The translations under genes were made by a program, and so were the position numbers. Under the pieces are notes generated by a model that was given only the letters and a program-made list of their open reading frames with translations, was not told the origin of the DNA and made no database searches. Shown here in pieces: positions 24,404-27,448 of a stretch of DNA of 47,405 bases (within the stretch, counting starts at the first letter, position 1; each line of letters starts with the position of its first letter). The DNA comes from Bacteroidetes bacterium RIFCSPLOWO2_12_FULL_37_12 (lineage in GTDB: Bacteria > Bacteroidota > Bacteroidia > 2-12-FULL-37-12): the NCBI GenBank assembly GCA_001769655.1, contig MEPC01000030.1, forward strand, positions 1 to 47,405. The letters run 5' to 3'.

Positions 24404-27400
24404 ATGTATCTATGCTGTACGATTAGTAAAATAAAAGATGTGAGAAAAAAAATTATTAAATTCTATTACATTTTACTCTATCTGGCATTTTTTTGCTTTA
24501 CTGATTTATCAGCCAAAGTAAATTATCCTGCAAAAGATTTTAGTCAGGATAATACTACCTCAAAATCCATCAAAATAGATTCTCTGGAGCAAGAATTAAA
24601 AATTTCCAAACTGGATTCCATACGGACAAAACTTCTGTTTCAATTGGGTCTTGAATATAAAGTTCTTTTGCCTTCTAAATCCATTATTTATAGCGAACAA
24701 GCGTTATTGCTTGTAAAGAAAACAAAACAGGTATTGCTCACAGCAGATATTCTGAAATTACTGGGTTTTCAATACACAACGATTGGAAATTACAACCAGG
24801 CGATTAGTTATTATTCGGATGCAATACATATCTATAAAAAATTTAATAAAAAAAACGATGAGGGTGATTGCATCCATAATACAGGTCAGGTTTACTTGAA
24901 TAAAGGTGATTTAAAAAAAGCGCTTTCCGAATTTAGAAAAGCATTGCGAATTTATGAGGAAGCTGATTACCCTTATGGTATTGCAAAAACTTATCAGAAT
25001 ATCGGAATACTTTACCGTCATCTTGATAACAATGATAAAGCACTGGAATATTATTTTAAAGCCATAGCTATTTGGGAAAGGGTAGACAACAAGCAGGAGA
25101 AAGCAAATTGCTTAAACAGTGTCGGCATTGTTTACATCCGAAAAAAAAATTATAATAAATCCCTTGAATGTTTTACTACTTCCCTTGAAATTCAGAAAGA
25201 GCTGAATAATAAAAAAGGAATTGCATCCATACTGGCAAATCTCGGAATCATTACTGACGCAAAGGGTGACTTTAAAAAATCGTTGGAATATTTTGAAAAA
25301 TCCCTTGCCATCAGCAATGAAATACAGGATAAATGGGGGGTTTCCGCCGCTTTAAACAGTATCGGGATAGAGTATAATCTTTTAAAGGATTTTAAGAAAG
25401 CAAAAGAATACAGTCATAGAGGACTTGCTATTGCCACTGAAATAGATGCAAAAGAAAATATTAAAAACTCTTACTATAATTTGTTTGAAACATACAGGAA
25501 TTCCGGTGACATGAAAAATTCATATCAATATCTTGTATTGTATTCCAAAATTAAGGATTCACTTTTCAATGAAGAAAAGAACCGACAGATTGGTAAGATG
25601 GAAGAAAATTATGAAATAGATAAAAAAATACGTCTTGAAAAAGAAAAAGCGGAAAAAATTGAAAAGCAAATTCAGAAGGAGAAGAAAAGAAGAACGGATA
25701 TACAATATTATGCATTGACGGTATTTATTGTCGTGCTTCTAGTTCTGGTAATAATTACATTAAAATCACAAATAAACATCCGTGTCACTACCGGTGTAAT
25801 ATTTCTCACCTTTTTAATTTTGTATGAATTTCTGCTGATTCTCCTGGATCCGGCTTTAGAAAAAATTTCAACCGGTGAACCCATTGTAAAATTGCTGTTT
25901 AATGTGCTGATTGCCTTATCAATTTTTCCTATACATCGTTGGATTGAAAAAAAAATCACTTTAAAACTAATTGAACAAAGAAATCCCCCCATAAATTATA
26001 ATCTGCCCATTCTGTTTTTAATAATTATACTAAACAGCGCCTTTTCAGGAACAAATCTTAACTCTGAAAATACAATGGATAATTCATTTACAACTACCGA
26101 TTCCATTCCCAAAAAAAATTCAGTTACCCTCCTGATTGATTCTTTGCAACTTGCCCTGAAAACATGCACAAATGATTCTTTAAAAGCAACTATTCTCATG
26201 AAGTTGGTAGATACTAATTATGATACTCAAACCTGGCCCGCCTTAAACCAACAGGCATTGGAAATTTCTGAGAAGCAAATACCCTTGTCAAAAGGAAAAA
26301 CACTTGAATACTATCTTAACATTAAAGGAAGGGCTTTGTACTATAAAGGATTTGAAATGGACTATACCGGAATAAGTGAAAAGGCGCTTTATTACTATTA
26401 CCAAAGTTTAAAATTATTAGAAAAGACAGGCGATTATGAAAATCGCAATACAGTTATGAACAGCATTGGAGCATTGTATTACCAACAAAATATGACATCG
26501 AAAGCAATTTCAATATTTAAAGATTGTATGGAACTGAATATTAAAAACAAGGACCGGGTTGGAGAATCAAATACTTTATTGTGGTTAGGTTTTAATTACT
26601 ACAAAAGGGGGGAACTGGATACATCCGCCAACTATTTAATAAAATGTTTGTCGAAACTTTCTAAAGACGAAGCGAATGAAATCCATGTTTCCGCTCTGCA
26701 ACAATTAGGCGCAATTTATCGCAGTAAGAAGGACTATCAACTTTCAGCACACTATTTCAGACGCGGTTATGAAATTTCAAAAATTTTAGGCGATGAAAGA
26801 GGCATGATGTTATATTTTAGTAATACAGGAACCCTGTTTAAAATAAACGGATTCAATGACAGCGCTTTGTTTTATTTCAAGAGAGCCGAAAAAATTGCAT
26901 ACAAACTGAACCAACCTGATCTGATAAAAGGAATTAGTTTGGAACTCAGCCAATTCTATAATGAAACAGAAAACTATGCTAATGCAGAAGAATATTACCT
27001 CTTGTATATGAAAATGAAAGATTCATTGATGAACGAAAGTAAATCGCAGGAAATCGGGAAATTGGAAGCACGTTTTGAATCGGAAAAAAAACTGGAAGAG
27101 GAATACCGTCAGAAATTGGAAAAAGACGCTGACGATGCGGCAACCCGTTTCAGAAAAAATAATTTACAGTATTCCGCTATTTGTATTTGCCTGATCCTAT
27201 TTTTTCTAATTCCGTTTTATTTGCGAAGGAAAACTACACATTTACACTTTCTGCCCGTTCTTATTTTTATTTCATTTCTTATTTTTTTTGAATTCCTGCA
27301 AATGTTAACAGACCCCATAATGGATAAATTAACACAAAATGAACCTGCATATAAATTATTAGTAAATCTTGCACTTGCCTTTGCAATTTCCCCTCTGCAT

Positions 27401-27448
27401 AATTTTCTTGAAAATAAGTTTAGAAAACGATTATTAAAAAATAAATAA
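24404..27448 (+). CDS. Double-module TPR / coiled-coil / membrane-domain protein (locus B)
   Basis: About 1014 residues from ATG 24404; GTG 24440 would give a tighter signal peptide ([21 protein letters not shown]) and is a realistic alternative. The architecture is doubled as in locus A: signal peptide, about seven 40-residue TPRs to 25600, [18 protein letters not shown], coiled coil, a membrane helix, then the membrane domain ([15 protein letters not shown] ... [18 protein letters not shown], about 25823-25950). An internal signal-peptide-like helix ([17 protein letters not shown], about 26000-26050) opens module 2 with its own TPRs, [18 protein letters not shown], coiled coil, helix and membrane domain ([15 protein letters not shown] ... 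PLHNFLE, about 27287-27414). There is no output domain. Follows the secreted propeller gene and precedes atpD by 46 bases. Function unknown. Confidence 0.85.

Follow-up and report, generated by a model that had tools for sequence, protein, structure and literature searches.

Within the window—the whole 47,405-nucleotide stretch analysed here, from contig MEPC01000030.1—two genes each encode a protein made of two copies of the same module. Gene A (positions 13346–16567, minus strand) specifies P0001, a protein of 1073 amino acids, and gene B (24404–27448, plus strand) specifies P0002, of 1014 amino acids. Both are uninterrupted ORFs and their Pfam matches are to TPRs only (TPR_12, E 7.7e-85 for gene A and 3.8e-52 for gene B). 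Each module runs from a signal or anchor helix through an array of TPRs, a linker of the form DS[LI]xNExK..IGKxE and a charged coiled coil into a three-helix membrane domain, which consists of a first transmembrane helix (TM1) and a TM2–TM3 hairpin. A preliminary description of this DNA had proposed the twofold arrangement at both loci, and intact reading frames, TPR_12 matches and a profile of the membrane domain bear it out. It had also pointed out that these sensor-like proteins contain no kinase, cyclase or HTH domain, which the Pfam search confirmed.

In gene B, whose features all lie on the plus strand, the first module (B1) opens with a signal peptide region (24404–24511), seen in the sequence and modelled by AF2 as helix 2–25. 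There follow a TPR superhelix of eight helical hairpins (24554–25510; AF2 residues 40–358, pLDDT mostly >90), a predicted single long helix that unites the final TPR helix with the coiled coil and TM1 (25511–25765; AF2 helix 359–443), and the membrane domain with TM1 and hairpin (25688–25966; profile E 4.9e-30). The second module (B2) contains an internal hydrophobic segment that probably serves as a signal anchor and stays uncleaved (25995–26052), a linker and coiled coil (27017–27175; linker match) and a membrane domain of the same make-up (27152–27433; profile E 7.7e-34). Upstream on the same strand, a gene for a Reg_prop protein with a T9SS sorting domain (23123–24379) ends ~24 bases before gene B, and the two possibly form one operon. 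Downstream, 13 bases after gene B when counted from a TTG ORF start, lies a gene identified by sequence as encoding the F1 ATP synthase beta subunit (27462–29012), an unusual neighbour for a receptor gene.

Gene A, with all features on the minus strand, begins with the A1 signal peptide (16478–16567; ..NFGPIGFAQ in the sequence). The A1 linker and coiled coil (DTLFNEEKSKKIGGLEA..; 15278–15436, linker match) lead into a degenerate membrane domain (14957–15301; profile E 8.7e-19) that carries an in-frame, repeat-derived insert, NVSRKGAKAQRF, between TM1 and TM2 (15140–15205). A repeat-like inter-module linker (FKHKEYEFKHKEHEGGTKGTK; 14867–14953) connects to A2, with an internal hydrophobic segment that is again probably an uncleaved signal anchor (14834–14881), a linker and coiled coil (13646–13804; linker match) and a membrane domain comprising TM1 and the TM2–TM3 hairpin (13394–13669; profile E 9.8e-28). 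Peptides related to the repeat CGCAAAG[GA]CGCAAAG (SRKGAKAQR, HKEHEGGTKGTK) stand in frame in loops of gene A; the repeat itself occurs 14 times in the ~0.4 Mb sampled of this genome, and some of these copies form inverted pairs, spaced ~75 bp, that lie downstream of membrane-domain genes (L040, L046, L048). Gene A is flanked by an ORF6N-domain gene and a RhuM-family gene (12683–13249, 16596–17594), and a PDDEXK_2 transposase-family gene is found nearby (10862–11716).

By their profile positions, the four stretches originally described as membrane domains correspond to the TM2–TM3 hairpin of each domain. The hairpin motif, E..[DN]P..N..A..P[LI]H...E, follows the coiled coil in the A and B modules, in A1 only in part. 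The gap-free alignment claimed for the four copies holds for the hairpins; it does not extend to the whole membrane domain because of the A1 insert of ~22 residues between TM1 and TM2. In TM3, A1 has indeed lost the Pro and the His, as had been observed, and the Asn is gone too; these losses recur, whole or in part, in its three closest paralogues. That the copies have specialised, as was suggested, is plausible, with degenerate N-terminal halves present in the four-gene subfamily of gene A and in L031:9841-12471.

An AF2 model of B1, computed with 64 relatives (pLDDT 87.9, pTM 0.69), supplies the single-module structure that the preliminary description had called for: the TPR superhelix, one long helix predicted to be continuous over residues 359–443, and a hairpin of helices 448–478 and 482–515. 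A separate model of the B1 coiled coil and membrane domain (pLDDT 84.7) agrees with the full-module model, both being predictions of monomers. Since the module starts with a signal peptide, the TPR array is expected to lie outside; the short turn after TM1 would then be inside, the hairpin would run in–out–in and the basic tail would end inside. In most proteins, the C-terminal tail after the hairpin measures only a few residues.

Among 64 modules, median pairwise identity is ~0.31 in the TPRs, 0.38 in the coiled coil, 0.52 in TM1 and 0.62 in the hairpin, which is thus the best-conserved part of the module. Positions invariant in a 99-sequence alignment include the TM2 Glu, the Pro of [DN]P, the loop Pro, and the Pro and His of TM3. 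The membrane domain had no match in Pfam, NCBIfam or PDB sequences, and scanning 99 and 25 members singly against the same three collections gave a few scattered weak matches only. A match of L081 to LptF/LptG was judged to be chance (E 0.004, below cut-off). No fold match was found for the membrane domain either, the lowest E-values being 4.1 for the PDB and 1.1 for viral folds, and a fold search with the full module returned TPR matches only among the 50 matches listed. A literature search, with subscription journals mostly outside its range, found no published work on the membrane domain, nor any that describes response regulators with a transmembrane output domain. The initial statement that the motif belongs to no known family therefore stands, as no described domain was matched. 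We also rejected a generic hydrophobic match: strong E-values return TPR, propeller or coiled-coil carriers, not assorted membrane proteins, and wherever the ORF was inspected, strong matches were TPR or propeller proteins. A few unrelated membrane proteins matched at ~5e-5 to 1e-3 (e.g. L190, L192, L194, L195).

The scope of two loci had to be corrected to ~49 ORFs in this genome of 3.9 Mb. One 52-residue query returned ~67 convincing places and the profile 74 at E ≤ 1e-4, the best at 1.7e-39, therefore excluding chance; these 74 copies sit in the ~49 ORFs, 25 of which are doubled. By comparison, HATPase_c places above the cut-off number 22, not all of them kinases. The linker is a general feature of the TPR sensors of this genome and therefore not specific to loci A and B. 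ORFs with the membrane domain account for 55 of the 56 linker matches, so that the TPR receptors of this organism appear to use hardly any other output.

Profile searches across Bacteroidota had also been proposed at the outset. At E ≤ 1e-3, the domain was matched in 24 of 395 phylum genomes and 28 of 198 class genomes (this genome included), the weakest of these matches being possibly false; most matching genomes showed one copy, and copy numbers from these runs are lower bounds, scoring having been confined to the top 13 or 26 candidates of each genome. Most Bacteroidota have zero or one copy. Full counts in selected genomes, which for MAGs depend on completeness, amounted to 59 in G451, 25 in G561, 22 in G482, 20 in G510, 19 in G035, 9 in G546, 8 in G024 and 7 in G497. 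The named multi-copy MAGs include NORP154, NORP157, NORP269, NORP286 and B1T1B10; here the modules are mostly single ORFs of 450–650 amino acids, often arranged in tandem, as pairs or rows whose members touch or overlap, such as a row of four at L141. The copies of this genome cluster together (11 changes vs 57 in shuffles), so that the expansion is largely lineage-specific.

Doubling has occurred repeatedly. In a tree of 67 modules of this genome, N-terminal and C-terminal halves are intermixed and well-supported branches force at least 8–9 label changes, arguing for several independent doublings. Within L056:3145-6483 and within L034:4042-7428, each half has the other as its closest relative (support 99 and 100), so these two were doubled in place, while the gene A subfamily (with L047, L055:11205 and L057) goes back to a single doubling that was later copied as a double. 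Several doubled genes have been duplicated as doubles; the halves of gene B have long branches and could not be placed in the tree. The inter-module linkers resemble translated intergenic sequence with repeat-derived peptides. In a crude motif test for signal peptidase cleavage, [AVST]xA was present at 1 of 25 internal signals vs 21 of 43 true N-termini (p 1e-4), which argues that the doubled proteins stay whole. One 1478-amino-acid ORF (L041:6446-10879), located within a cluster of three doubled genes, comprises two complete modules plus a third TPR array that lacks a membrane domain. Two module ORFs broken by a stop codon (L046:2530-5461 by TAA, L043:2652-3917 by TGA) are probably decaying copies.

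Other sensors carry the same membrane domain. Propeller/Y_Y_Y proteins end in it in this genome (three ORFs of L053, as well as L039, L239 and L240, the latter two with an extra coiled-coil tail) and in other genomes too. Following weak domain matches, we reached proteins with the TM2–TM3 hairpin only, namely TPR proteins without a signal peptide (L234:4972-6948, L235:3350-5287, L281), a single case of a REC domain (PF00072, E 1.9e-18) fused to the hairpin (L292, G035:C31), and a 158-amino-acid coiled-coil hairpin protein (L236) that adjoins SiaC (PF09345, E 4.8e-37) and a REC-SpoIIE-DUF6272 protein. In hhalign, the hairpin of the three-helix domain aligned with the TM1-less set over 61–62 columns (probability 95–97%, E 2.8e-8 and 5.8e-11), with scores of 40.6 and 51.6 vs 26.1 and 24.6 for the best of 200 controls each, in which columns were shuffled within segments. 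In the reverse search, the TM1-less hairpin profile retrieved the membrane domains of TPR- and propeller-type proteins. Homology of the two hairpins is thus well supported, but it is remote and does not amount to identity of function: the alignment needs a gap of one residue in the loop, and the Glu within the membrane precedes the Pro by 8 residues in the three-helix form and by 5 in the TM1-less form. In propeller and TM1-less forms, moreover, the TM3 His is replaced by Glu.

This genome encodes a stalk–hairpin protein of its own (L257:2274-2798, G000:C31), directly after a SiaB-like DUF6272 gene (E 7.9e-39) and SiaC (E 2.6e-37). Stalk–hairpin proteins adjoin SiaC also in G035, G047, G546, G461, G038 and G490; the neighbour of SiaC in G520 has one TM at its end in place of a hairpin. 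Most SiaC-adjacent stalks carry SDRLQ or GDRLQ, and SDRxQ is present in both L257:2274-2798 and L236:5300-5773. The SDRLQ of the Sia stalk matches S82-D83-R84-x-Q86 of SiaD; in the SiaC–SiaD crystal structure, S82, D83, R84 and Q86 of the SiaD stalk are contacted by SiaC (PMC8457831). SiaC was found in 25 of the 28 genomes with a domain match vs 97 of 170 without (p 7e-4), a statistic that ignores phylogeny and includes a few weak matches (those in G463 and G480 may represent the TM1-less hairpin itself). Three genomes (G089, G191 and G540) have the domain without SiaC, and SiaC is hence not a requirement. We likewise rejected the stalk–hairpin protein as an obligate or general partner, since it was not found in the f24 genomes, some of them incomplete, that hold up to 59 domain copies. 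Listing the genes next to the matches, another of the checks suggested beforehand, disclosed no recurrent gene other than paralogues among the neighbours of 45 genes of this genome, 104 of other MAGs and 20 single-copy genes; one neighbour cluster of 48 loci was seen, probably chained by secretion-tail domains. The idea that the modules signal through a partner thus gained no backing from a conserved neighbour gene.

Bacterial receptors are normally classed by their soluble output—a kinase, cyclase, DNA-binding or methyl-accepting domain—and known relatives carry a kinase, HTH or GGDEF where the hairpin stands. In every context, the hairpin comes after a coiled coil, a receiver or a Y_Y_Y domain, and it is usually the C-terminal element. 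As it repeatedly occupies the place of an output domain, the simplest reading is that it is the output, and its occurrence on cytosolic TPR, REC and SiaC-binding-stalk proteins makes it look output-like rather than sensing. We further count in favour of this reading the combination of a variable sensor with a constant end. Against it speak the lack of a conserved genetic neighbour or known partner, the remote homology to the TM1-less hairpins and the single REC carrier, and by position an anchor that follows a coiled coil would be indistinguishable. On balance, we consider it an even call that the hairpin represents an output module embedded in the membrane and not described before. In the mechanism we propose, the periplasmic superhelix of 40-residue repeats would sense a ligand or protein, and the helix predicted to run on from the last TPR through the coiled coil into TM1 would relay the change through the inner membrane. 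A short cytosolic turn would join TM1 to the hairpin, a short basic tail would end the chain, and TM1 might be an addition that lets a periplasmic sensor drive the hairpin. The output would not phosphorylate; it would act within the membrane on a putative partner there, most likely through altered packing or partner binding as two modules rearrange as a dimer, with doubled proteins behaving as covalent dimers.

The main rival to an output function is a module for anchoring and oligomerisation, in which the hairpin merely holds and pairs coiled-coil proteins at the inner membrane, no signal crosses, and the TPR arrays serve envelope complexes as scaffolds or adaptors in the periplasm. Such a role would fit the missing cytosolic domain after the hairpin with its mostly very short tails, the absence of conserved partner genes, TPR superhelices that resemble those of scaffolds such as LGN, and the T9SS-sorted protein encoded directly upstream of gene B. 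A simple anchor, however, could do without 62% identity and without the invariant E, P, P, P and H of the hairpin, and one would hardly look for it on a REC protein or a SiaC-binding stalk. Given such conservation and the REC carrier, we deem this role less likely than an output, though possible.

That several hairpins instead use their intramembrane Glu, Asn and His to build a small pore or proton path gated by the sensor is unlikely: conserved charged and polar residues do lie in the predicted TM2 and TM3, but no fold match to a channel was obtained and the His is a Glu in the propeller and TM1-less forms. Still more improbable is that the doubled genes are functionless translated intergenic fusions, or polyproteins that signal peptidase cuts into two single modules. 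The linkers do look like translated intergenic repeats, and in relatives the same modules are encoded by individual ORFs in tandem, which may be separate, touch or overlap; yet the 25 doubled ORFs are open and recurrent, the cleavage motif is scarce at internal signals, and several of these genes were copied as doubles.

This genome carries 74 receptor-like modules for which any output would have to lie in the membrane, vs the 22 HATPase_c places. If the hairpin is indeed the output, many proteins now recognisable only as TPR proteins would become a receptor family. Repeated fusion of neighbouring modules also offers a natural experiment on the question whether a dimer is the working unit. Quite tentatively, one may go on to envisage a new class of intramembrane output common to periplasmic receptors of the TPR and propeller types, to response regulators and cytosolic TPR proteins, and to SiaC partner-switch stalks, which could bring all these carriers together at a single membrane target or, through hetero-assembly, with one another. 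The stalk–hairpin protein in the SiaB–SiaC operon provides a concrete place for testing the hairpin as output.

Among described systems, FimS-type TPR kinases (Porphyromonas FimS, NCBIfam NF053520) and TPR–HTH regulators share with A and B the signal peptide, TPR array, coiled coil and first TM, the periplasmic location of the array in A and B being predicted from the signal peptide. FimS is the best NCBIfam match for gene A, and its model aligns with residues 147–447 of P0001 (E 1.5e-61); at 208 bits vs a cut-off of 600, this match is, as NCBIfam matches here generally are, TPR-driven, partial and far below cut-off. Unlike these proteins, A and B have neither a kinase (no Pfam match to HisKA or HATPase in P0001 or P0002) nor an HTH; the chain re-enters the membrane as a conserved hairpin and ends. 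Some propeller sensors (Reg_prop plus Y_Y_Y, HTCS-like) of this genome and its relatives possess the very same membrane domain, with a different sensor: Pfam finds Reg_prop and Y_Y_Y in L053 and L239, and not in A and B. The third comparison is with SiaABCD (SiaB kinase, SiaC and SiaD stalk; eLife 2021 e67289, PMC8457831), whose SDRxQ contact residues are common to the SiaC-adjacent stalk–hairpin proteins. The coiled coils of A and B, in contrast, are predicted to be periplasmic and show no SDRxQ in their sequence. Unlike SiaD, which ends in GGDEF, the stalk–hairpin proteins end in a TM hairpin, and this hairpin is homologous to that of A and B.
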